This document shows positions 974-58,400 of a DNA stretch of 64,000 nt, piece by piece; positions within the stretch are counted from its first letter, which is position 1, and every line of letters begins with the position of its first letter. The notes beneath the pieces were generated by a model, which saw only the letters and a list, made by a program, of their open reading frames with translations, was not told where the DNA came from and did no database searches. This DNA is from Corallium rubrum (Eukaryota; Cnidaria; Anthozoa; Scleralcyonacea; Coralliidae). The position numbers and the translations under genes are program-made. The DNA lies in the NCBI GenBank assembly GCA_964035015.1, contig OZ036000.1, positions 2,741,599 through 2,805,598 of the forward strand, written 5' to 3'.

Positions 974-3900
974 CTTATCAAAAAGCAGATGGTCTGTTCC
1001 TATTGTCTTTGTAATTTCTTCATATACTTCTCGAATCTCATCACCAATATAAAGATTGCGATCGAGCCACTTCACAGAAGCAGTATCAATCTAAAACGTC
1101 ATTAATTAGAAAAAATATGAAATGTACAGTTTCTTAAGGTGCTTGTTTAAATAATTTTCCTATTTTACATGGAAAGACGGGATAGAACAGGTTACTTGAA
1201 CTAACCTCGCCAATAAGATCATTATAAACTGTGGGATAACTCTGCAGAGTGATATCTGATTTGTTTACTCGATTTGAAACACGTACGTCTGTAGTACGAA
1301 CAATACTCTGAAAAGATAAAAGAATAAAGGTTTGTGAGGAGAATGAAAAATATTACATCACATGCATGTATATAACAGAGCATATAATCAAGTTTAATCC
1401 ATATTCGTCAACGGAATTATATCTAATTCATATGCTACCTTGTCTGGTAGTCTAGTTGACACTGTAGCTGGCTGTACTGGTTGCTTGTTCTCTAGTTGTT
1501 TATTCTAAAAAGTAGTAGAAAAGAGGCAGAAAGGAGTGAGTAAAGGTAAGATTGGCGAGGAAAGGAGGGAGGGAGGGAGGGGGAGGAGGGAAGGAAGGAA
1601 GGAGGGAGGGAGGGAGGGAGGGAGGGAGGGAGGGAGGGAGGGAGGGAGGGAGGGAGGGAGGGAGGGAAGGAAGGGAGGGAGGGAGCGAGGGAGGGAGAAA
1701 GGGAGGGAGGGAGGGAGAAAGGGAGGGAGGGAGAGAGGGAGGGAGGGAGGGAGGGAGGGAGGGAGGGAGGGAGGGAGGGAGGGAGGAGGGAGGGAGAGAA
1801 GGGAGGAAGGGAGGGAGGGAGGGAAGGAGGGAGGGAGGGAGGGAGGGAGGGAGGGAGGGAGGGAGGGAGGGAGGGAGGGAGGGAGGGAGGGAGGGAGGGA
1901 GAGGAGGGAGGGAGGGAGGGAGGGAGGGAGATAGGGAGGGAGGGAGGGAGGGAGGGAGGGAGGGAGGAAGGGAAGGGAAGGGAGGGAGGGAAGGAGGGAA
2001 GGAAGGGGAAGGGAAGGAAGGAAGGGGAAGGAAGGAAGGAAGGAAGGAAGGAAGGAAGGAAGGAAGGAAGGAAGGAAGGAAGGAAGGAGGGAGGGAGGGA
2101 GGGAGGGAGGGAGGGAGGGAAGGAAGGAAGGAAGGAAGGAAGGAAGGAAGGAAGGAAGGAAGGAAGGAAGGAAGGAAAAAAGGGAGTTATAATTTTTAGC
2201 AACTTCTTGACAGTAGTTTGAAGTATTTACCTCTTCTGCAAATGACACGACCCTAGAACAAATAAGATATATATGTTTAAATAACGAGAAATGACACGGT
2301 TTTATGATAGAAAGAGAAGATAAAAAAACAATCCTTGTAAACTCACTTTTCGTGGCCTAGATCTTCATTGCAAGCAACAGAGGAAGCAATAGTTGAAGCC
2401 ACTTCACTTTTGTCATCACATTCATCTTGATCCAAGTCAATATTAACCGGAACTTTTCTTTTCTTAGTGCTATGGTAGCTCAAAGCCTGGTTAACAAATG
2501 GTAGTTGAGAATACTTTTACTCTAACATTCTTTGCTCACTCTACTTAACAAGTTCAGAAATCAGTCTGATGAGAAGTCGAAACATTAGAATATTGTGGAG
2601 TTGAGAATTGGGGATGGTGAAGTTTTGAGATAGAGATAGTGGAAAGTTGACATGCTGAAAATGATCAACACACACCTGAAGTAATGGTGGTAGGTCTTGA
2701 TCTTTGTCTGTGACTGGAAACTGTCGTTGCTGATAAAAAAACAGAAAAGATATTTATAACAATCAGATTCAATATGTGAAATATAAAAATTTGTACTTAT
2801 GTACATGTGGTGTACATGTGATGTGCATGTGGTGTGCATGTGATGTGCATGTGGTGTGCATGTGATGTGCATGTGGTATGCATGTGATGTGCATGTGGTG
2901 TACATGTGATGTACATGTGATGTGCATGTAGTGTAGATGTGATGTATATGTAATGTACATGTGGTGTACATGTGGTGTACATGTGATGTGATGGACATGT
3001 GGTATACATGTGTTATACTTGGTGTACATGTGATGTATACATGTGGTATACATGTGGTGTACATGTGATGTACGTGTGGTGTACATGTGATGATGGACAT
3101 GTGGTGTACATATGGTATCCATGTGGTGTACATGTGGTGTACATGTGATGATGGACATGTGATGTGCATGTGGTATCCATGTGGTGTACATGTGGTGTAC
3201 ATGTGGTGTACATGTGGTATACATGTGGTGTACATGTGATGGACATGTGGTGTACATGTGGTATACATGTGGTGTACATGTGATGATGTACATGTGGGGT
3301 ACATGTGGTGTACATGTGGTGTACATGTGGTGTACATGTGGTGTACATGTGGTGTACATGTACCTTTGTTGAAGCATCCTCAGCAACAAGCTTCTCAAGA
3401 TCCGCAGAAAGAAAATCTGAGTCTCCTAATCTACACAAGGAATTATTAAATATTTATAAGCAACAACACATGGAAAACAATAGAAACTAAAGAATGAACA
3501 CACAAGTAACCTACTTTGCTTTTCCTAAGCCAGATTCTTCATTTTCTGTAGAATCTTCTTTTCCACCACATGCAAGATTAATCTGAGGAAGATAACACCA
3601 ATTAATAACAGTACGTCTACTATTAAACGTCTTCCGTTGGTGAGTGAGGTAATGAAAATGCCAAAGATGCATGGGGACATATAATCACATTACAACCCAG
3701 ACCACCGTGCATGGACAACCAGGAAGGATGATAGGTACATAAGAAAGTACTATAGCTAAACCAATAAATTTCTTTACAAGGTATATCCATTACTCAACAT
3801 ACCCCAAGAGTATCCACGCTGACACGTCGATATCCTAAAGAGAAATTTTGAAAGATGTTTAAAAAGATGGAATAATAATAAACTATAACAAATTATTTTA

Positions 3901-6900
3901 ATAATTTTGAATACCGTAAATAAAATTAGAAATGTTCCATTAGAACACAAAATCAATGTATGTTAAAGTCATTACTTGTTCCATTTTCTGGCACACCAAG
4001 TTCATCCAAAAGTGATTCTCCAACCATTAAGTTTGGTAACGAGTGGTAGTGCTTCTACCAAAAAAAGAAATATGTACATGTACATGCTTGCTGTGAAAAT
4101 TGGTTGTCTAAGTTAGCGTAGTCTTAAGAAAGACTATTGTTGGTGGTGATAGTGGTAGTGGTTGCACCGTTGTGGTGGTGGTGGTGTGGCTGTTGGTGGT
4201 GGTGTTGTTGTTGGTGTTCTTGGTGGTGTGGTGGGTGGTGTTGGCAGTGGTGTTGTTGGTTGTGGTGTTGTTGGTGGTAGTGGTTGTGGTGTTGGTGGTG
4301 CTGTTGTTGGTGGTAGTGGTGTTGGTGTTGGTGGTGGTGGTGGTGTTGTTGGTGGTAGTGGTTGTGGTGTTGTTGGTGTTGGTGGTGGTGGTGGTTGTGG
4401 TAGTGTTGGGGTGTACTTGTTGATGGTGGTATTGTCGCTGGTGGTGGTGGTGCATGGTGGTGGTAATCTAACTACGTTTCGACGGCCTTAGAGGTATCAT
4501 ACCTTAAGAAGTATCTTCAGAGTTATCAAGTGAAGTATTTCTGTCAGGTTCACATACAGTAGCTAGTGTGTATTTACGTGTCTGGTTCATCGCGTTATGT
4601 GTGGGTACTGTGCACGCATGTGGGAGCCGTCGAACCACGAGTTACTACCACTTTATCAAAATACTAAATCAAACTAAAATTTACCTCTGCACGCGAAAGT
4701 GGAGTGCGGTGATCATAACTATACAAACCACATAAAAAAACATGATATTAATGGAGAAAAACTTCCCTGAAATGAACATGACGTGAAAAATGAACATTCA
4801 TGTTCCATGAGCAACTTTACTAACTCAAAAACTTACTCTTCGTCAACAACATCAGATATCTCAACAACTGGTGTTTCTTTTTCTAATCAAATAAAGAAAC
4901 GATTTGCTAAGAAACGTGTATTTTTTCCGAGAAAAGACAGCCCAATGGTTTAACCTACCTGCAGGCTTTTCAGGTTCAATTCTTTTGTGAAGATCATACG
5001 TGAAAATACCGTAAGTTTTTTCAACTTTTTCTACGGAAATGTTGGGCATTTGTGCTTGAATCTAAAAACAAATTCTATGTTTCATTTTTGTATTTATATG
5101 TACAACAGTATTCTATGTGGATTTCATGAAGAAACCGTTATTCATTACTTCTTAGATTGTCCCCGTTTTGCTGCTCTGAGGCAAACTTTGCTTTCCTCCG
5201 TTGACAATACTTTAGTGACTCTTGGCGTCACATGTCCGACTCACAAAAAGTAGATATATTACTGTTTGGCTCAGCAGAGTTATGTTTAGTAGAAAATATT
5301 GCTATGTTCTACGAAGTGCAGACATTTATAAAAAGGTCAAACCGTTTTCATTAATTTTACACTTTGTACATGTGATGCATGTTTTGTATTATTGTATCAA
5401 GTTTATTCTTGTTATCCTATTATTCTCGTCAATACTTTTCTCTGTTCGTAACTTGTACGATGATCGATTTCCTGTAGTTCTTCGAGTCTTTTTGTTATGT
5501 TTCTTTGGCGTGAACCTCCTCGATGAGCGTTTCGTTCTTGGGGCAAATGCAATTAATTCAATTAATTGTACTTAATTAATTAATTAAAATATGTTTAAAT
5601 TAAAAATAATATTCTATGTTTAATTATCGGTTTCTTGTTAACGGTTATTCAACAAAGTATTTTTTGAAAATGTAAAAATTTAAGTAGAGTGCTGCGTCGG
5701 CAGTCGGTTTTAGAAAAGGTGGTAAACTACTGAGACTTTTAGTAACGGAAAGCTGACGTTTCGAGCGAAGCCCTAAATCACATTTCACTCTGATGAAAGG
5801 CTCTGCTTGAAACGCCAGTTTTCCGTTACTAAATACCTCAGCAGTTTACAACCTTTTCACTTTGTTCTATCTACAAAACACTGCCGCCGTACCATTCTAG
5901 TTAAGGTGCTGTTACACGATGCGATTTTTCATGCAACAAATCACTGAATGTTGCAAGTTGCATAAAAAATCGTACAGTGTATACCCAGTGCCCGTAGCAA
6001 CTTGCGATTTTGTTATTTTTGCCGTGTTGCATGTTGCAAGAAAAGTTGGATGGGTTCTACTTTTTGCTGCATCTTGCAACAAAAATCGCAAGTTGCTGAA
6101 CGTGTAACACCCTTCCTGCAACTTGCGAATTTTTTTTTCAACGAGTAAATTTGTAGCAAGTTGCAAGAAAAATCGCATCGTGTAACAGCACCTTTAAATT
6201 TTTACATTTTCAATTTCTGATCTCAATTTTTTTTAAATTTTTAAAATTTTCAAATTTTTACATCTTAATTTTTGAAAATAATTTGTTGGGCAATAATTTC
6301 CCTAAAAATAATCAACTACTGTAACATATTGTTGCCAGTATATTCATATTGTTATATATGTATCTAAGTGCTGTACAGCCAGTACAGGTATTAACCTCCA
6401 TAATGTCGTGGTCTCTTCTCTTCCTGTCTTTCTCTTCCTTCGTCTGTTTTGGTTGTATGCAGAGACTTGTAAGCCCCATTTTTGTCTTCCCAGGTTTCTG
6501 CATGATCAGGGAAATAAAAAACAACAGATTTAAAACAAAAAACACACTGTTCACTACTGAGAAATTGATATTAAATATCAGTACGGTTTGGGTACAATTA
6601 TTGAACGAAGTTTCTAACGTTTCTCTCAGAAACTACGTTCAATAATTTTGGCAGTATATCAAACCTTAATTCTTTGAACGTTTTCATGGCGATAAAGTAA
6701 TATAAATAAGTTTTGTGGAAACATCACGTAAAATATTTCTTTGCTAAGCTTTCGGCCTGTTGACTCAGGCCTTCATCAGAGCAATAATAACAAACTGCTG
6801 GCTCAAGTCATTTATAAACTAAGCAACTGATCAATTAAATCACGTAAGAATACAATGGCGTATCACGTTAATTTTATTAATTAATAGGGCACGCCACGTG

Positions 6901-9900
6901 CTATTTAATGGCTGTCCCTCCTGAGAAACAGTGTGATGTTTTGCGATATGTTATTATTGCTCTGATGAAGGCCTGAGTCAACAGGCCGAAAGCTTAGCAA
7001 AGAAATATTTTACGTGGTGTTTCCACAAAACTTATTTATATATCAAACCTTACTGTATTTCGATTTGTATTTCAACACTGCCTACGCGGCACACTACTTT
7101 TATTTCAGTAAATTAAATTTTAATTTGATAACTGCATCTACCAGCAATCGAACCGGGACTGATCACAGAGGAGAAAATCATGACTGCGCTAACCACTGTG
7201 GCACCAACACTCCACTCACTGTGGCAACAAATTAATTACTGTACCTTCGATTTTACATTGGTTAGTGTAGGCTGACGTGATAGTGTGTACTTTGAGCCAG
7301 TTGTGGACCCACGGCTGACATGACGAGCTTCTTTTACAGCTGCTGTCAAACGTTTGTGAATCTTGTGAATGTTGAAGCTATAAAAGAAACAAATAAAAAT
7401 TGTCAAAATAACGTATATGATAGTATGTAATATCTTCTTTGCCATGTCCTAGCCTGCGTGCGGGTAGCGACACTTGGGGTTGGGAGAAGGGAAGAGGAGG
7501 GAAAAGGATAGGGAAGGGAGGGAAAAGGATAGGGAAGGGACAGGGAAAGGAAGGGAAGGGAGGAAGGAAGGGGAAAGGAAAGGAAGGGAAAGGGAAAGGA
7601 AGGGAAGGGAGGGGAAAGCAAAGGGAAGGGAGGGGGAAAGGAAGGGAAGGGAGGGGGGAAAGGAAGGGAAGGGAGGGGGAAAGGAAGGGAAGGGAGGGGG
7701 GAAAGGAAGGAAGGGAGGGAGGAAAGAAAAGGAAGGGAGGGGGAAAAGAAGGGAAGGGGGGGAAAGGAAGGGAAGGGAGGGAAAGGAAGGGAAGGGAGGG
7801 GGGAATGGAAGGGAAGGGAGGGGAAAGGAAGGAAAGGGGGAAAGGAAGGGAAGGGAGGGGGAAAGGATGGGGAAGGGATGAAGAAAGGAAGGGAAGGGAG
7901 GGGGAAAGGAAGGGAAGGGAGGGGGAAAGGATGGGGAAGGGATGGGAAAAGGAAGGGAACTGGAGGGGGAAAGGAAGGGAATAAATGGAAGGGGAGAAAA
8001 GAAAGGGAGGAAAAAAAGACTTTGCGGCTGTACTCTAGACATCGGCACTGGTACAATTGTGTAGCCATCAAGCACTCGGGCTGCTCTCTTTAACCATCTT
8101 TGTGAACTTATTTATTACACAATTAATGAGTGTACCTTTGATTAGCTTCCAAGGCAAGCTGAACTTTCAAACGACTATTGTTTGCATAAGATGAAAATAC
8201 ACCTCTTTCATTAAGTTCTATAACACAAAATAGTAAAACATTCATTTGTCAGAAAGATTTTTAAAATTCGAATCAATGTTTTTCAGTTGACTTTGCTAGT
8301 GTTAGACAATCTTTTAACTTTTCTCTTCTTCTTGTTGATCTCACCTTTTGCTTTGTTTACAGTGTTGAAATAAAGGTCTTCAGCGATGGTGATCAGTTCA
8401 ATTGCCAGAAACCTAATGTTTAAATATTAATGACTTTTATTTTTTAATAAAGAATATTATTATCACCACCACAACTATCACCAGCTGCAGCATCATCACC
8501 ACCACCATCACCACAATCACCTGCATTATAATTACCACCAACAGCACCACAAGCAGCACCACCACCACCAGCATTACCACCACCACCATCAGCAGCAGTA
8601 CTATCAGCACCACTACCATCAACGCCATTGCCACTAGCAGCATTACCACCAACAGCACTACAAGCAGTACCACCAATAGCAGCACCACCAGCAGCAGCAT
8701 TACCACCATCACCATCACCATCAGCAGCAGCACTATCAGCACCACTACCATCACCATCACTGCCACTAGCAGCATTACCACCAACAGCACCACAAGCAGT
8801 ACATACCACCACCAGGAGCATTACCACCATCACCACCACCATCAGCAGCAGCACTATCAGGACCACTACCATCAGCACCACTGCCACTAACAGCATTACC
8901 ACCAACAGCACCACAAGCAGTACCACCAACAGCAGCACCACCAGCAGCAGCATTACCACCATCACCACCACCACCACCAGCATCATTACTGCCATCACCA
9001 CTAGCAGCAGCATTACCACTATCAGCACCACTACCATCACCACAATCACCACCACTGCCACCAGCAGCATTACCACCACCAGTAGCAGCACCACCACCAC
9101 CACTGCCACCAGTAGCAGTACCACCATCACCACCACCACCAACATCACTACCAGCAGCACCACCACCATTACTACAAATAGTACCACCACCAGCAGTACT
9201 ATCACTACTATTACCACCATCACCATATCTCCACCACTACCACCACCAACATCACTACCAGCAGCACCACCACCACCATTACCACCACCACCATTACCAT
9301 CACCACCATTACCATCACCACCAACAGTACCACCACCAGCAGCACTATCACCACTATTACCACCATCACCACCACCACCACCATTACCACCATCACAATC
9401 AGATCCATATTACATAAGTCTTTAAATTTTATAGTATTATTTATATTTATTAAATATTTATATAGTTATAAACACATATACATTAAATAAATTATTTCTA
9501 CCTCTCAACTTGCTGATTTTGCTGATTACTCTAAAAAGTAGAATAAGAAAACGAAATTACTAAAAAAAATAATATACAGCACTGTAATAAAAAATATAAT
9601 TTTGCCCATCATGTAAAAAAATCGGACTCCCTTGGATTCTACTGCCTTCATCAATCACCTTCACCCCCCTGACATCATTTATAAAATGCTGAATGTGCCC
9701 CCCTTGTTTAAAAATGTAAGAAAATAAAGAAACTCACCAGAAATGGGTCTGGAGCAAGACTTCTAACCTCAGACCAAGAACTACTTAATTCTGAAATAAC
9801 AACACCCATCTAGAAGGCAATGTACACATTTTATATTTTTTATATTTTTCCCAAAGACTTACAAACAATGCCAGGGGCGTAGCATGTGAGGAGGGGGGAT

Positions 9901-11407
9901 GTAGGGAAATTAGTGCAATACCCCCACTTATAGACACTACATATACCACTGTACAGTGCATTCAAATGGGAGGCCATATATAGTGCTTATTATGTGAAGG
10001 GTTTTATTACCATTGCTTGTTGTTGACTTGATGTAAGTCCAGGGACTGGCTCTAATTTAGTTTCTATCCTTTTTTGTAAGACCTGAGAGAGTTGACTAAA
10101 TGATGATACAGGTTCCTTGATTGCTTCCTAAACAAAAACACAGAATATACAATACATGTACACTGTCACTAAAAAAGTGAAAATTATCTGAGGTCAATAC
10201 AGAGATTAGCAATTAGCAATTAGTAATACTGATTTTTGATAGCAATATACTCAGAAGATTTACCTCAGTTGCAGTAAGAGGTCTTGCTTGTTTTCCATCA
10301 TCAATATGAGCTTCAACAACAGGTTTAATTTCTAAATACGGCACAGAGAAATCAATTTGCAAGATAAAAAATAGAAAAACAAGACCCAGTCATAAAGGAT
10401 GGTGCCATACGTATTGATTTCACACAAACAAATAAATGAACATGTATACTGCACAGACAAACAATTAACAAATAAACTAACTAATAAACAATTTAATTCA
10501 CATGTAGAATATAAAACAATGCTAACAGCACTGCAATCTGAACCCATTACTGCCAAAGCCAGCCAAAAACAGATCCCTTTATTTTCTCCCCTCTGTCTAA
10601 CAGCAGACAATTTTTCTCATCAAAGGGACAACCCTCGGACATCCTAGGCAGCAATGGGTTAACGCACTTGTATTTGAATCATAACAATATTGCCAAACCT
10701 TTTTCTTCTAGTTTTTTAAATAGACTTGTTGGACCAGTAAGTTGAGAGAACTTAGCATGAAATGCATTCTATATTAAAGAAAATCCCTATAAATATTGGC
10801 AGGAATATAGCGTGCATGTGGGAAGGGGGAGGAAGCTGCAACAACCCCCCCCCCCCCTGGACAACTAGCTAAAACAAAAATCTAAAAAAAGTTCTGATAC
10901 ATACATAATTAAATTTAAAAAATAAACTTATGTACGGAATATATTACTGTTCTTCAAACAATGTATTTCTTAATTAATTCTTTGAAAGTTTTCATGGCGA
11001 TAATGTAATATAAATAAGTTTTGTGGAAACACCACGTAAAATATTTATATTATAATGTATTTATCTTATTTATATTATAATGTATTTCTTTTATCCAAAG
11101 CTCTTATAATGCACTGATTTATTTATAGTAGTGTTTAATTTTGCCTTTTTGCACTCAAATTATCAGATTTAAGGCTTGTTGTGTCAATAGCTTGGTAATG
11201 ATGTCAATTTGCTAATCAAGCTGGGTTTTCCCGCCGTCTGGCTCTAAAGCTCTTGGTATTTACATTTTCCCCAGAAATACTTCAATTTGACCAGCAAACT
11301 GACAAAATTAAATTATAAAAACAATGTATTTTGCAGCGAATTAATTCCTGTTAAACACTCACCGGTGAAAGGAATTCCGACTCTAATTCATAAAGTTCTC
11401 TGTTCAT
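974..11407 (-). CDS. CCDC87: CCDC87-like protein, 5' part (23 exons; 3' end outside window)
   Basis: Exons, 5' to 3': 11363-11407 (ATG), 10699-10768, 10264-10331, 10011-10127, 9738-9809, 9502-9530, 8345-8412, 8136-8217, 7245-7377, 6396-6497, 4959-5061, 4837-4882, 4685-4718, 3976-4054, 3803-3834, 3515-3582, 3364-3430, 2676-2729, 2347-2486, 2231-2252, 1439-1504, 1206-1307, 974-1090. All have GT-AG borders and their 1716 nt stay in phase for 572 codons. The last exon ends at a donor, so the gene continues past position 1. Segments that recall vertebrate CCDC87, from memory: RGVFSSYANNSRL, HSLPNLMVGESLLDELGVP, DLPPLLQ, and REVYEE followed by DHLLFDK near the end of the visible part. CCDC87 proteins are linked to sperm and are coiled-coil; their molecular role is poorly known. 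Exons 5-10 are separated by large purine-rich and trinucleotide repeats. The exon structure is well supported by phase; the family name is from recall. Confidence 0.8.
1560..2176. repeat. (GGGA)n/(GGAA)n microsatellite
   Basis: About 600 bp of pure GGGA then GGAA repeat units on the + strand, inside an intron of the CCDC87-like gene. The long open frames on both strands (Arg-Glu-Gly or Pro-Ser-Leu repeats) are products of the repeat and are not genes. Confidence 0.95.
2803..3362. repeat. 11-bp minisatellite, unit ACATGTGGTGT
   Basis: About 50 tandem copies of an 11-bp unit with consensus ACATGTGRTGT and GATGATG variants, ending at the donor of the 3364-3430 exon of the CCDC87-like gene. Since 11 is not a multiple of 3, all three frames read the same His/Tyr/Thr/Cys protein and many spurious ORFs appear. 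Confidence 0.95.
4145..4470. repeat. (GGT/TTG)n trinucleotide repeat
   Basis: Imperfect GGT, GTT and GTA triplets over about 320 bp, in the CCDC87-like intron between exons 13 and 14. The poly-Val, poly-Gly and poly-Thr frames are artefacts. Confidence 0.9.
5085..5560 (+). pseudogene. LINE 3'-end remnant
   Basis: The + strand encodes a short peptide with the pattern C-G-F-H-E-E-T-V-I-H-Y-F-L-D-C-P-x-F-x-x-L-R, which resembles the cysteine/histidine cluster at the C-terminus of many non-LTR retrotransposon polyproteins. Near 5250 a one-base frame change moves to a second frame (VDILLFGSAE) that continues the similarity. There is no reverse-transcriptase domain upstream, so this is a 5'-truncated, decayed insertion. 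It sits in the intron upstream (in + coordinates, to the right) of the 4959-5061 exon of the minus-strand gene. Confidence 0.6.
5693..5895. mobile_element. Fold-back element with degenerate hammerhead arm
   Basis: Inverted arms (AGTAACGGAAA on the left, TTTCCGTTACT on the right) flank a core that reads CTGATGA, stem, GAAACGCC on the + strand at 5790-5816. The expected GTC cleavage triplet is GCC here and the left arm has lost CTGATGA, so the ribozyme is probably dead. A related arm at 55507-55554 is intact. Confidence 0.6.
5904..6193. mobile_element. Fold-back MITE with TTA target duplication
   Basis: A 290-bp element with perfect terminal inverted repeats (AGGTGCTGTTACACGATGCG on the left and its complement on the right), flanked by TTA at 5901-5903 and 6194-6196. 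The three-base TWA duplication points to PIF/Harbinger mobilisation. The interior repeats CAAGTTGC and TTGCAAG motifs and is itself palindromic. Confidence 0.75.
6741..6784 (-). ncRNA. Hammerhead ribozyme (minus-strand arm)
   Basis: Minus strand, 5' to 3': stem I strand TTGCT, core CTGATGA, stem II GGCCTG / loop / CAGGCC, core GAAA, then GCT, T, then AGCAA, which pairs with TTGCT. Predicted cleavage is between the T after GCT and AGCAA. Stem III is only the palindrome AGCU, so activity would need a dimer, as known for many short-stem-III hammerheads. All core positions match the consensus. Confidence 0.75.
6957..7000 (+). ncRNA. Hammerhead ribozyme (plus-strand arm)
   Basis: Mirror copy of the minus-strand ribozyme: TTGCT 6957-6961, CTGATGA 6962-6968, stem II with six GC-rich pairs 6970-6987, GAAA 6988-6991, GCTT 6992-6995, AGCAA 6996-7000. 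Predicted cleavage is after 6995. It is antisense to the Penelope-like ORF tail, whereas the other arm is sense. Confidence 0.75.
7136..7212 (-). repeat. tRNA-like SINE head
   Basis: On the minus strand an A-box-like GTGGTTAGCGCAGT is followed about 35 nt later by a B-box-like CCCGGTTCGATTGC, the spacing of a Pol III tRNA promoter. The ends do not form a clean acceptor stem, so a tRNA-derived SINE fragment is more likely than a functional tRNA. It lies 30 bp from the donor of exon 9 of the CCDC87-like gene. Confidence 0.5.
7479..8015. repeat. Purine-strand (GGGAA)n satellite
   Basis: About 530 bp of almost pure purine on the + strand built from AAGGGAAGGGAGGGG-type units, in the CCDC87-like intron between exons 8 and 9. 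Polypurine tracts of this kind can form triplex (H-) DNA. The Lys/Glu/Gly and Pro/Ser/Phe ORFs are artefacts. Confidence 0.9.
8455..9405. repeat. (CAC/CAT/CAG)n trinucleotide repeat
   Basis: About 950 bp of CAC, CAT, CAG and TAC triplets with a higher-order period (blocks such as CATTACCACCAACAGCA recur at about 8640, 8780 and 8900). It lies between exons 6 and 7 of the CCDC87-like gene. Long Thr/Ala/Pro and Val/Leu/Met frames are artefacts. Confidence 0.9.
10973..11046. mobile_element. Penelope-like terminal fragment
   Basis: Matches the outer end of the elements at 6669 and 25109 (TTCATGGCGATAATGTAATA ... ACCACGTAAAATATTT) and stops before the hammerhead core. It lies in intron 1 of the CCDC87-like gene. 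Confidence 0.6.
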
Positions 11408-11976: not shown

Positions 11977-14900
11977 ATGCAGAGATCTGTTAGCAGTGAG
12001 TAGAAAACATCAAATTTACCTCAACATTAACGCGAATTATAATTTCTTTATAGTTCAATGCTCTTGAGAAATTTAAAAACATCTGTCATATGTTCTTTGA
12101 TGGCAAGAAAAACACATTGTTTTCACTCAATGACAGTTTGCTAAGTAACTAGCAGAGAAGCTGGTCAAATCTCTTTTTAAAATGTTGTTTTTCAACGTGA
12201 AAAAGTTAATTTTAATATCATACTTTCCTTTGTGAATTAAATAGTCTATGGCAGTTCTTCAGCACTTAGAGGGATACAACTGAAGATTGGTGAGAAGTTT
12301 AAACCTCCAGCCAAGGTTTGTAAATGTTTTTCATTTAACTAACATTGTTTATCTGGTTAGTATTTATATGATTGAATTCAATTCTTAAAATAAGTTTAAA
12401 CGTAATCAGTTTATTCAAGCGAAACGCCTCATTTTCTCTTCCTTATAAACTAATAAATGAGATTTGAGGTATTTAGCTGTTAGAAAGACTCAATCCTAGT
12501 GTTTAGTTTGTGAAAAAATGTCAAGTTAACAACACTTAGGCTAGACTATATTATAAAATTACATGATGTTGCTACCATCAATTCATTATCAATCGATTAT
12601 TGACAATGATTAATTGATTATTGACAATGATTGACTGACAATGATTGATTATTGACAATTTATTGACTATGATAAATTGTTTATTGACAGTGAGTAATCA
12701 ATTATTTATAAACAATTAATGATTAATTGATTATTAACAATTAATTGATTATATAAAAAGCTTGATGATTAAATTCTTATCACTGTACATTGTATAAGCC
12801 AATTAGTATAGGTAATCATATGATAGTGAGTGCAATTAATGATTTTACACTACGAGTGATATTTGAAAATTGATCCAAAATTGCACGAGCCGTAGGCGAG
12901 TGCAATTTGGCTCAATTTTCAAATATCACGAGTAGTGTAAAATCATTAATTGCATGAGCAAAATCATATGATTACTTGTTTATTATATGCATGACAAAAT
13001 TACGATATCTATCTTAATTACAGTCAAAAAATTTCGTCTTAATTTGAATGTTTATTGGCCATACAACCAGACAATCTTAAAAAGTTATTCAAAGCAGTGA
13101 ATTAATTTTTCTTTCTCGCAACCAACTATAAGTAATTACAAACTTCAAAACCAATTTACGATTACCTGAAGTGTCAATCCTTGTGGTACGCTTCGTAGTA
13201 ATTCGCATGTTTGAAAACATCTTGTTTCGTTACAACTGGACAACAAACAGTTTCACTTATGGTGAGCAGATGTTACCTGTATTGCTCTTCAAATATTTAC
13301 ATGAAATTTTCAGTTGAAAGTGTTCCACAAGTTGTTGGAAAAGTCAAAATCTTTCAATTTGAAAATACACCGCCATTTTGAATTTTATTTTTTACCACTG
13401 TTACCATGGTAACATTAATTTGCACGGAGAGTGTAATTAACGATATAATTGCACTCCTCTTAGCCAATCAGATTGCAGTAATTTTGTCATGCATATAATA
13501 AGTTGTTTAATAATTTTCTTTCAACACTAGGTAACTTTACCAATGGGATGGAAAACCAGAGATCCATCACAAATACTTGGTCTTACAGTAAGTTGCATAC
13601 TGTACTCACAACTTTCAGAGTCTACCAAAATTAATGTAGCTATGATGGCAATATCACACAAAAATATTAGGGTGAGGTGGTTCAGGGTAAAAACCGAAAA
13701 CCGCCTGGAAAAAACCGAAAAAATCGATATTTATATCTGTAGATTTACTTGATTCAACTTCACGCTACACGTTCAAGACTTTAGTTTTTAAAACAGTTAG
13801 TACAATGTATCGTAATATTTACAAGAATTAAATTTTCAAACATTGTAGCTATATACGTTCTACACACAAGGAAATGACTAAGTAACAGTAAAACTGGCTT
13901 TCTTTCTATCTATATACAAGCGAATGCGATAGTCTATCCTTACAAATTCTCCGCTAGGAAGACAAGTTTGTCAACTTTCTCGGGCTTTAGTTGCGCTCGT
14001 GCTGGTGTAGCAACTTGCCCCGCTTTGCTAAAAAGCCTCTCTGATGGCGAACTGGTGGCTTGAATGGTGAGGTATATTCTTGCCAATTGTGACAGTAACG
14101 GAAGTTCTTTTGCGTTAACCTTCCACCATTCTAAAGGTTCGTCGTCTCCGTCAATGACTGGATAACTGAGGTAAGTGTCAATCTCCTTGGAGAGACGGCT
14201 ATGTGGAGAGGCTGCTGGTGACGCCGTTTCTTTCTTTTTCAGGCTGGTCAATGCCCCAAGGCTGAGTTTTGCCTTCTTTGCAGCGGGCGATGGCAAGACA
14301 TCTTCTTCTTCTTCTTCAATGCTGCACTCTAGAAGAACAACATTCTTCAAGAGCTCCTCTTTGACATTGTTCAATTCTTCGCTTTCTGTTTCTAAAAAAT
14401 CAGTCTTGTATCTAGCATCCAAGAATGATGCGACATTCATCAAACCTTTCAATCGATCGGCAACATAACGCGCTTGTAGTCGCGTCATGACCTCCTCCTT
14501 GATTTCGGCGGCCAATGGCAAATCGTCATCTTGAGGGGCCAATTCAGTTGTTGACAGGCGATGGAGAATTGGCTTTAACGCACTTATTGTCACATAGTTG
14601 CTCGCAGACATAATATCTGTGAACGCCTTCAGCGGACCAAGTGCTTTATCCACACACTCCAAGACTTCCAAATCTTGCCACTTCGGGACCAAATGGGAAG
14701 TATCCTTGTCGTTGCCAAGAACTCGTCGAATGGCCTTCTTATTGCGCAGCACCCTGCTGATCATGTGTTGTGTGGAACCCCAACGTGTTGGGCACATCTA
14801 AAATCATTGTTCATGCGACACAACAAAAATTGTTTAGTAAAAAACAGTAACTAAGTTTTGAAACTTTTGATTGACTTAAGTTTATATAGTCTCAATAATA

Positions 14901-21761: not shown

Positions 21762-30889
<9,128 letters not shown>

Positions 30890-41087: not shown

Positions 41088-41245
41088 TCGTTTTCATGGC
41101 GATAATGTATTATAGATAAGTTTGGTAGAAACACCACGTAAAATATTTATTTGCTAAGCTTTCGGTCTGTTGACCCAGGCCTCTGATGAAAGCCTTGCTT
41201 TGATTAACGCCTGAGTGAACAGGCCGAAAGCTTAGTAAGTGCTAG
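41088..41245. mobile_element. Degenerate Penelope-like terminal pair
   Basis: Both ends of the family at 6669 and 25109 are present (TTCATGGCGATAATGTA; AACAGGCCGAAAGCTTAG), but the hammerhead cores are damaged and the interior is deleted. Confidence 0.6.
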
Positions 41246-55400: not shown

Positions 55401-58400
55401 CCGTTCCGGTCCTGCAGAAAATTTGCCTGAGTGGAAACTAGCCTAAACGCCCTGCATGCCGTAACAGTTTGATGACGGTAATGACGATATATACGACCAC
55501 AGTATTCGTAAAATTACTCTGATGAAGGACTCCACTCGAAACGTCAGTTTTACGTTACTAAAAATCTCAGCTGACTGAGCTTAACATCTTTTCACTTTGC
55601 TCTAAGATCCCGTTTACACGATACCGGCACAAAAATAACATGAAATGTTATATGCTGTATTTGCCTATACCGGCATGACTTTGTTCCGTTTTCAAATTGT
55701 ACTGGCATCGTGTATAAAGCCTAGTTCTCATATGTCGTCGACGGTCGCCGATTTGTGATTTAGATGCATGTTAAAACGGTAAAAAAGAAAAGTAATAAAG
55801 AACAATGTAGAAAGCAGTGCTTTTCTGCATTGTTCGTTATTACTTAACATGCATCTGAATCATGGATCGGCGACGGTCGGCGACATTTGAGAACTATAGG
55901 CTTAAAGGACATTGGCAATAAAAAATAAGTTTGTCTCATTTGAAAGAACCCGTCAAATGATATAAGATGACCTTTTACAATTTGTCCGTATCTGTTTTGG
56001 TTTTGGAAATATTTCGACCAAAGGCAGCGTGCTGTCCGCCATCTTGTTGTAATATTGGGTCTAATTAACTAGGAAATGGTGACGTCACAACCAGGGTAAA
56101 CCTGATGAAACTACTCCGTGGGTGACCAGATTTCCACGGAAGGCTTTTCAAATGTTGTGGGTCAATTTAAAATGGAAATAGCGCAACAAAAAATCGAGTT
56201 TCTAGCAAAATAAAAGGTTGGCAAGATAAAAATTGCACTTTACCCTGGTTATGTCGTCACATGCATAATTTTGCATATCGAAAATAATTCCAAGATGGGG
56301 GACATCACGCTGTCTTTAGTCAATACCAAAACAGATACGGACAAATTGTAAAAGGTCTTCTTATACCATTTGACGAGTTCTTTCAAATGAGACAAACTTA
56401 TTTTTTATTGCCAATGTCCTTTAAATGGGGTCTAAAACACTGCCTACGCGCAGCACTTTACTTTTTGACATTTTAAAAGCTTTCGTGTATGTTTAGACAG
56501 AATGCATTGTGCAGTGGGAACGCTCCTGTGTAATATGGTATTACAATAAATTGCCATTCACCTTAAAAGCTTGCAAGTTTGGATATGTGATGACATGATC
56601 ACCTCCCATAAATAATGGTTTGCAGCCATTTTGAATGATCTCACTTGTATCTTGTTTAATTCTTTTGCATGTATTTAATACATTATAAGGGATGACTGGA
56701 ATATCACCAACATCAGCAACGTTTAATGTTTTAAATGGCGATGCACCCGTTGCCCCATTCACTGCCCTCAACATCACTGATTCACAGCGGATTTGTCTTG
56801 GTCCGAGTCTAACAAAAATGACAAAATTAAATTAGGTCGACTAAACCTTTTGAAGTTACATTTTCTTCTGAAGGGGTTATCATCTAACTTAGCAAAAGTA
56901 AAGAAAAATATGAATTTCGAGGTAATCTCTCTCCGATAGTTCGCGATAGTACTTCTGTTTCCATTTTTAAACATAAACTTTATATTCACTACTCTTCTAA
57001 GTTAGACTCCAATTTCGATGTTAATAGACTGCGCACCTGGAAAAGCTTCTGTTCTAAATGTCGTTCTTTCAATCCAAGTTGTGGCTCTTAAATCTTTATG
57101 TAATTTGTGTATTAGTTTGGGGTTTTTTATCGTGTGTTTACTTCACGTTTATTATGTAATTTTTTTGTTGGGTTGGTCTTCACATGGGACTCGTGTCCTG
57201 TTGATCATTCCTTCAATCATGTTCAAGTATTGCACTCTTTATTTACTGTATATTTGCATTCTTGCATGGTTGTAAAGTTAATAAATTAAAGCAAGCTGCT
57301 ACATAGACATTTACAAGACCTTGACTTGGTGCTTTGTTTACTTGTTTTAGGTGTTGTTCAATATCGTGCATAATGAAATTAAGAAACCAAAGTTTTTGTA
57401 GACCAGAGCTGCTACAGTGGTCTGACCACAGAATAGTAGATACACCAGGGGTCTGACTCTTGTGAAAGTACTAGCTCCCTATTTGGCTCAGTTATAGAAT
57501 ACCCCGCCACTTGTACTAGATAGATCATTCAGGTGCTACCGTGTCAGGTAATCGTAATTTTCCATCCACAAACTTCCCCGATTTGTGATTAGGGTTAGGG
57601 TTCATGGTTCCATTGTGTGGGGGTCAGGTAATCGTAATTTTCCATAGTGGCCGAGTTGGTTCGATTTTAGAAAGTGGCGTGGTATTCTATAATCGCTCCA
57701 AATATTCTATGATCTGGTGTCTAAGTGTCGCTTAATTGTACATTTTCGTATAAAATTGTTGAGAAGCTATTGTGAACTGTTGGGAAACTTAAAGCTGTGA
57801 ATATGTTGAAAGCATTGAAATTAAATATACCTGTTGAAACTACAATACTGAGTATTGTTGTACTGTCTTATTTAAAATACTAGCAGAATCACAAAATATT
57901 AGTGATGTGCATTACATTTGAATGCCAACTACAGCATATTTATGACAGGTAAAATGTTGTTTTGGAACACAATGTTGATTATCTGGGGTGAGTTGTATGA
58001 AGCCTGGATAGCTTATCTAGTTGAAGTAGATAAGTCCTAGCTAAAGAATCATGCTTTGAACAACCTAATATAAAATTTTATCCACTGAATAGTTGTGTAT
58101 CTGATAGTGCTGTTCAGTGGATAAAAGTTAAATAATTTGGGACGTTTAAAGCACGATATCTTAGAGTGGTTCTCTAGCTAGGATTTATCCACCAGATAAG
58201 CTATCCGGGCTTCATACAACAATCTGAATTTTACAAGTTCACTTCACGTGAAACTTGGGGGCATTTTCTAAAATGCCAATATATGTTACAGTATGTTTTG
58301 GAAACAGCCAGTAAAGACGTATGTATAGGATGTGCCATGTTTAAATTAGCAATCACATGTATAAAATACCTATCATTTTTTTGTGACTCACTGTGTGCTT

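Follow-up and report, generated by a model that had tools for sequence, protein, structure and literature searches.

How does a single short insertion come to carry two intact hammerhead ribozymes that face each other, and does their opposed arrangement serve a role? The question is raised by a locus at positions 6655–7052 of a 64,000-nucleotide (nt) stretch of the genome of the anthozoan Corallium rubrum (assembly GCA_964035015.1, contig OZ036000.1, positions 2,741,599 to 2,805,598), which is referred to here as the window and is numbered from its first letter. A preliminary description of this DNA had read the locus as the remnant of a Penelope-like element (PLE) with two opposed hammerheads in inverted arms and a target duplication of 14 base pairs (bp), and this anatomy was borne out by a reading of positions 6001–7800 and by a repeat search. 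As judged from its sequence, the locus is a strongly 5′-truncated copy of a high-copy, endonuclease-containing PLE that lies inside another repeat. It consists of the final ~310 nt of the element, its 3′ end, lying on the minus strand, together with an inverted piece of the element's pseudo-long terminal repeat (pLTR). Taken alone, the locus is ordinary. The comparison with its relatives leads to the reading preferred here, namely that such a structure probably results from a single Penelope insertion in which both strands of the target served as primers, reverse transcription began at two fixed start positions and the two complementary DNAs (cDNAs) were joined head to head. The ribozyme pair looks like a by-product of this insertion and not like a special device.

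Outer and inner ends of the insertions

Two opposed arms are present in 45 of the 58 insertions that were read, and 43 of the 45 bear a tail at one outer end and none at the other. The tail-bearing end lies within a few bases of ...ATGAAAACGTTCAAAGAATTAA, and its tail, ~34 nt in length, holds the start codon (ATG) of the element's open reading frame (ORF); the end without a tail, ...CTTATTTATA(TTA), lies 30–35 nt before the tail end (blastn). The rule was kept throughout (22 of 22) in the two-arm insertions that a tail-free query yielded and whose two ends could be read. Of these, 8 are shared with the first set, and this second set weighs more because the first query contained the tail. Tail status does not go with arm length, since the arm without a tail extends further upstream in 16 of 37 insertions. 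Grouped by host flanks, the 45 two-arm insertions reduce to 33 groups, of which 32 keep the rule; the odd group is L010 alone, and L033 breaks the rule within a group of nine members. Binomial probabilities of 4.8e-7 (21/21) and 5.6e-11 (42/44) assume independent ends, predate the re-reading of L064 as a tail/no-tail insertion and are not leaned on here.

These counts come from the window's own genome, comprising 474 Mb in 312 contigs. The whole insert as query gave 119 matches, with the best 40 of 1,499 candidates scored and 39 loci fetched, and the tail-free arm as query gave 45 matches, with the best 40 of 749 candidates scored (30 loci). The 58 insertions, mostly 5′-truncated, include 37 from loci L009–L047, 4 from the window and 17 new ones from L048–L077, tallied as one insertion per locus after removal of L015 and L030, which have the same flanks as L014 and L029. 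Further family fragments outside this tally are found in L025 (3038–3183), L027 (3468–3668), L034 (3125–3192) and L042 (2158–2225). Nine insertions are unclassed (L020, L026 = L050, L029, L034, L038, L039, L054, L076 and the window copy at 41 kb), and among all insertions some ends were read from the sequence by eye (in the window copy at 11 kb, L033, L064 and L071). All analyses of 37 insertions draw on the 45 with two arms and omit L010, L021, L033, L052, L060, L064, L071 and the window copy at 11 kb.

The host flanks suggest that each insertion is one event, with a single target duplication spanning the pair of arms. In a first series, a repeat scoring at least 8 and mostly 12–14 nt long is common to both flanks, at or near the borders, in all 30 pairs (including L015, a duplicate), compared with 6.8% of 870 mismatched flank pairs. 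Such border repeats, again scoring at least 8, were found in 11 of 14 further pairs, L071 scoring 12; weak pairs are L064 (6.5; 9 nt with one mismatch), L052 (match off the border) and L076 (none). The 14-nt targets are 80% AT, as opposed to 62.5% further out. Two separate Penelope insertions that landed close to each other in opposite orientations would be favoured by the high copy number of the family, a 31-nt pattern that begins in the pLTR and reaches the first tail bases having 1,193 exact matches in the genome against 0 for the control (a count that takes in internal pLTR copies and a pattern that stops short of the tail end). With one duplication spanning the pair in the sets just described, many tight junctions and the one-tail rule kept, this explanation is exceedingly improbable for the family, and at the window copy it is refuted by a continuous empty site (described below).

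In contrast to the near-fixed outer ends, the inner ends vary widely, lying between −75 and −2312 in the tail arm and between −75 and −1161 in the no-tail arm (37 insertions). This variation bears on a further alternative, a DNA transposon of the miniature inverted-repeat type (MITE) whose terminal inverted repeats would measure 93 bp and whose target duplication would measure 14 bp, to which the inverted ends, the duplication and the location within another repeat would all conform. Yet inverted repeats of fixed extent were not found, as arm length and inner junction change from copy to copy over the range given; one end is nearly always longer by the tail, the interior codes for the end of an ORF with reverse transcriptase (RT) and GIY-YIG domains, and single-arm copies with duplications occur. 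The combination of near-fixed outer with variable inner ends is taken to refute the MITE, whose probability we regard as next to nil.

The inner ends also carry information on the templates. Of 74 arm ends, just 1 falls 3 nt or less from the position at which the ribozyme would cut. Because arm ends do not mark the cleavage site, the templates would as a rule have been uncut at the hammerhead beforehand, and hammerhead cleavage was rejected as a general source of cDNA ends. In one insertion (L060), several strand or template switches are seen inside normal outer ends.

According to the mechanism proposed here, the element's enzyme would cut an AT-rich target with a stagger of ~12–14 nt, and both cut strands would prime reverse transcription on element RNA. 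On one strand, synthesis would begin at a distal start position and produce the ~34-nt tail with the ATG, and on the other it would begin at a proximal start ~34 nt upstream and produce no tail. Each cDNA would then run upstream through the pLTR and the hammerhead for a variable distance. Joining of the two cDNAs head to head and filling of the gaps would leave inverted arms, a target duplication and opposed hammerheads. The hammerheads would be passengers of this process, and RNA transcribed later across both arms would pair into a duplex in which they are masked.

An inverted arm could also arise by fold-back or self-priming, where one cDNA or an antisense template folds and is copied back, as proposed for the Penelope elements of Adineta vaga. 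In the parts of PMC3846280 consulted, a pair of inverted pLTRs, one of which may bear a tail, is described as the typical Penelope structure, and self-priming on an antisense template is favoured on account of palindromes at the inverted junctions. Near-equal arms in several insertions (e.g., L037, L041, L043, L044, L045 and L047) are in line with fold-back, as are subfamily letters common to the arms of one insertion above chance: at 3 polymorphic sites, arms within an insertion are discordant in 6 of 69 cases as opposed to 24% for random pairs, a value as low being reached in 1 of 2,000 permutations. Two-strand priming nevertheless fits better because a copied-back arm would be expected to share its outer end with the first, yet the outer ends of 43 of the 45 pairs are unequal and ~34 nt apart. 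Arm lengths are widely different as well, and the arms of L042 differ at all 3 linked subfamily sites, which points to two templates in this insertion, a pattern that fold-back would be unable to produce unless changes had occurred in parallel or conversion had followed. Identity between arms was dropped as an argument for separate templates, the arms of one insertion being correlated at shared sites, and L042 alone was kept as proof; identity within an insertion (median 0.978) equals or exceeds that to the best other arm in just 13 of 37. Fold-back is thus considered unlikely, and priming from both target strands is retained as the preferred explanation.

Several observations weigh against this explanation. 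The rule itself has its two exceptions, L010, where the inverted arm begins 25 nt further in, and L033, where both arms are tailed inside a palindromic host repeat. Priming at two ends is not obligatory, because four insertions (L013 = L074, L016, L040 and L072), all ending in the tail, combine a single arm with a target duplication. Among the two-arm insertions, the host flanks of 16 of the 45 resemble those of another insertion and 31 of the 45 stem from the tail-containing query or from the window, and the scored samples of both searches are small relative to their candidates (40 of 1,499 and 40 of 749). The arm lengths are anticorrelated (rho −0.42, p 0.01; 37 insertions), which is not expected under free independence and may be due to the picking of loci by long matches. 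The concordance of subfamily letters suggests that the two arms usually derive from the same or a sister RNA, which the fold-back model also predicts. Furthermore, the flanks of L021 are homologous to those of L052 on either side and the target duplications of both are weak, as would be left by a single ancestral insertion that was multiplied as part of a larger repeat or by a composite element. Insertions in copies of one host repeat are also seen in L031, L037 and L071 (as well as in L022 and L060), the first three at the same place of the repeat with different interiors, which would indicate either a recurrent target or a reshaped old insertion.

Hammerhead motifs in the arms

The two hammerhead motifs of the window locus, 44-nt segments at 6741–6784 (minus strand) and 6957–7000 (plus strand), are identical in every letter. 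Each is made up of stem I (TTGCT/AGCAA, 5 bp), CTGATGA, stem II (GGCCTG/CAGGCC, 6 bp with a 6-nt loop), GAAA and a self-complementary AGCT, and the cut is expected after 6995 in the plus motif and at the mirror position in the minus motif. The features of the minimal type I form are present at the locus, i.e., the CUGAUGA/GAAA core, stems I and II and a near-absent stem III. A descriptor that requires the core, GAAA and at least 4 bp in each of stems I and II matches only these two places in the window and has 0 matches in 60 first-order-Markov resamples, while the looser pattern CTGATGA-N(10-26)-GAAA has 5 matches in the window against 0.99 expected. Among the copies, which are too alike to bear on compensatory changes, the stem variants as judged by eye are single changes that often break a pair. 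CTGATGA...GAAAC motifs in another sequence setting, at 5790–5812 and 55519–55541 of the window, are possibly minimal hammerheads of another Penelope family, and similar motifs occur in L020 (1688, minus strand) and L031 (271, minus strand).

The preliminary description had held that its ribozymes should be recognized by covariance models and that a missing match would speak against them, and to the letter this is how the search turned out. Rfam at the gathering threshold gave 0 matches over the whole window, so no hammerhead, and at E values up to 10 there was no hammerhead among the 9 matches in 6500–7200. Since minimal PLE hammerheads that dispense with helix III or its non-conserved nucleotides have been reported (PMC7761336), we infer that the Rfam models miss the motifs; we think that these models are ill-suited to such minimal forms, with no known minimal Penelope hammerhead run as a positive control.

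Predicted folding sets the pair apart from a single motif. For the transcript of 6669–7041 from either strand, a 93-bp duplex is predicted (−190.6 to −192.4 kcal/mol), with ribozyme stem probabilities of 0.0, as opposed to 0.99 for stem II and 0.69–0.87 for stem I in the tail arm alone (280 nt); the calculation describes equilibrium folding and ignores co-transcriptional order and protein. A full-length transcript is thereby predicted to hide both ribozymes in the duplex, and it would presumably do so in the cell as well. The earlier statement that both strands can produce a ribozyme is therefore true of the letters and unlikely for the folded RNA. The idea of cleavage as a dimer rests on the cited literature and not on calculation, because an energy model without tertiary terms favours two monomers (−32.8 kcal/mol) over the dimeric hammerhead (−29.3 kcal/mol).

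The preliminary description had also hinted at a role for the inverted pair. A functional pair, for example in a double-hammerhead non-autonomous element or as a device processing RNA from both strands, would agree with the two intact and identical motifs of the window copy, and animal hammerhead retrozymes are reported to be expressed as small circular RNAs (PMC7229834). The relatives do not bear out the hint, as opposed arms are the family's ordinary ends, and among 37 insertions the descriptor is passed by both arms in just 12, by one arm in 22 and by none in 3. Arm ends ignore the ribozyme, the shorter arm ending before a complete ribozyme, and thus never having had a whole one, in 9 of 37, and the predicted duplex would mask whatever pair is complete. 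The layout of the window copy is not amplified as a unit among the best 40 of 1,499 candidates scored, where it is itself the sole end-to-end 100% match and the next near-full-length matches reach 85% and 83%. A function of the pair as such is therefore very doubtful.

The window copy and its family

The window copy is bounded by the two copies of its target-site duplication, TATATCAAACCTTA, at 6655–6668 and 7039–7052 (repeat search); of its 14 bp, just ~8 nt (GGTTTGAT in element sense) are unambiguous with respect to the element ends. Next to the left copy, the tail occupies 6669–6701 on the minus strand (~34 nt including ambiguous border bases), at the 3′ end of the insert and beyond the position of the no-tail end, and contains the ORF start ATG, read as CAT at 6685–6687. 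It is followed by the first inverted arm (6700–6792, minus strand), which would be the pLTR piece of the tail-bearing cDNA and contains the minus motif. The 3′ untranslated region and approximately the last 25 codons of the Penelope ORF lie at 6793–6948 on the minus strand, the ORF running from 6948 down to about 6880. The second arm (6949–7041, plus strand) contains the plus motif and, judging from the repeat search and the relatives, would be pLTR cDNA without a tail, joined head to head; its outer end coincides with the proximal start position and its inner junction lies near 6948/6949. In the repeat search, the arms are 93 nt each with 1 mismatch (99% complementary) and 156 nt between them. 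Compared with genome copy L018, the window copy lacks 27 nt, including the stop codon. The pre-insertion site is known because a copy of the host repeat without the insertion, at 91–191 of the same window (minus strand), aligns continuously across the joined flanks with one 1-nt and one 6-nt gap, in agreement with the empty site claimed earlier.

The assignment of the interior minus strand to the end of a Penelope ORF was likewise upheld, as it is in the same frame as its counterpart in L020, which aligns over 282 columns with the C-terminal end of P0099, a protein with RT and GIY-YIG, up to one residue before the end of the latter. The GVY...YIG stretch of L020 aligns across the PF01541 region (P0024, 49%; P0099, 37%). 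Because the endonuclease piece of L020 gave no Pfam match even at an E value of 5 and nothing in NCBIfam, its GIY-YIG identity was settled by pairwise alignment; a search of the PDB gave no match. The RT domain lies outside the short window copy and is found in the longer relative L018 (PF00078, E value 1.1e-9), which has 5,006 homologues at E values ≤ 0.001 with a best identity of 70%; named homologues among the 120 matches listed come from sea stars, a crinoid, sea urchins, a brittle star, a coral and insects. Its linkage to GIY-YIG, together with what is generally known of such elements and in place of a tree, allows the RT to be assigned to the Penelope type. The family possesses the features of a PLE, namely RT, GIY-YIG, a pLTR with an inverted partner and a one-sided tail, and a short target duplication in AT-rich DNA.

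Three further copies of the family are located in the window. The copy at 25109–25562 has head-to-head arms, the duplication AAGTTATAT and an ORF end with an in-frame stop; its plus arm lacks the 5′ part of the hammerhead and its minus motif, at 25161–25190, has a broken stem I. This copy adjoins an exon of an M13-type metallopeptidase (PF05649) and is probably intronic. At 10961–11090, a tiny copy with the duplication AAGAAATACATT comprises ~72 nt of tail arm and ~12 nt resembling the no-tail arm, so that both ends seem to be present even where an insertion is very short. A diverged copy at 41089–41238 has a partial tail and an altered right-hand hammerhead, and by eye no target duplication was found for it. 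Outside the family, a piece of a hAT-type transposase (Dimer_Tnp_hAT) is present at 13943–14797 of the window (minus strand), and in L026 a long ORF (1235–3136), by eye similar to the reverse transcriptase of long interspersed nuclear elements, lies between two pieces of Penelope copies.

Comparison with known systems

The literature already documents hammerheads in Penelope elements and their action as dimers, as well as inverted pLTRs, the tail, an internal start of reverse transcription and extension on two strands. The Penelope elements of Adineta vaga (Pen2a_Av and relatives, PMC3846280) resemble the present family in their 5′-truncated copies; they are described with an optional tail and a low copy number, whereas here exactly one ~34-nt tail occurs in 43 of 45 two-arm insertions and the duplications are mostly 12–14 nt. 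Hammerheads are mentioned 0 times in the main text of that paper.

Several likenesses link the family to the Poseidon element PAc of Anolis carolinensis (PMC11167929), in which a hammerhead is located at the pLTR/ORF start, reverse transcription begins at two internal sites, the stretch between which corresponds to the tail of genomic copies, and the enzyme cuts and extends both strands of an AT-rich target in vitro. The PAc hammerhead, however, spans the start codon and is cut 26 bp downstream, whereas the cut expected here is 58 nt upstream of the ATG. Reverse transcription of PAc starts 111–118 bp into the ORF, in contrast to the two end positions here, one ~13 nt short of the point where the ATG begins and the other ~21 nt past it. 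No apparent difference in start site between the strands is reported for PAc in vitro, whereas insertions here almost always have unlike ends. According to the same report, hammerhead mutants leave insertion in vitro unaffected, RNA with a dead hammerhead was inserted too, and the hammerhead showed no cleavage without protein (PMC11167929).

The motif itself corresponds to the minimal PLE hammerheads (PMC7761336, PMC7229834), which keep the core and stems I and II with a nearly absent stem III, reside in pseudo-LTRs and are reported to act as dimers; nothing distinctive was found in the motif here, and the opposed arrangement would be an insertion by-product. Animal non-LTR retrozymes (PMC7229834) are comparable in that their hammerheads are of type I, their units measure a few hundred bp and their target duplications, when present, exceed 4 bp. 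They are nevertheless direct tandem repeats with mostly canonical hammerheads, whereas the window locus has an inverted pair, a minimal motif and part of an ORF; with its arms inverted and its motif minimal, the locus was rejected as a retrozyme of this kind.

A strict rule of one tail per insertion was not found stated in the open-access literature searched, from which key papers are missing, and it may well be in print elsewhere. In the portions of PMC3846280, PMC11167929 and PMC7761336 consulted, the origin of the inverted pseudo-LTRs, the steps after internal priming and the reason for the keeping of the hammerheads are stated as open. The copies in one genome yield a quantitative rule, with a single tail in each two-armed insertion, outer ends ~34 nt apart and inner junctions that vary. 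This rule distinguishes priming on two strands from fold-back, and an enzyme that others have purified would allow it to be tested. A further proposal is offered tentatively, as one somewhat more apt to be wrong than right: a two-armed insertion may be intrinsically asymmetric, with a dimeric ribonucleoprotein (RNP) holding two pLTR RNAs and using a distal and a proximal start ~34 nt apart, giving exactly one tail. Such an RNP would pair two hammerheads, whose dimeric, protein-assisted cleavage could act after cDNA synthesis. If true, an asymmetric dimeric RNP would explain both the inverted pLTRs with their one-sided tail and a hammerhead that is kept although it leaves no mark on the cDNA ends.

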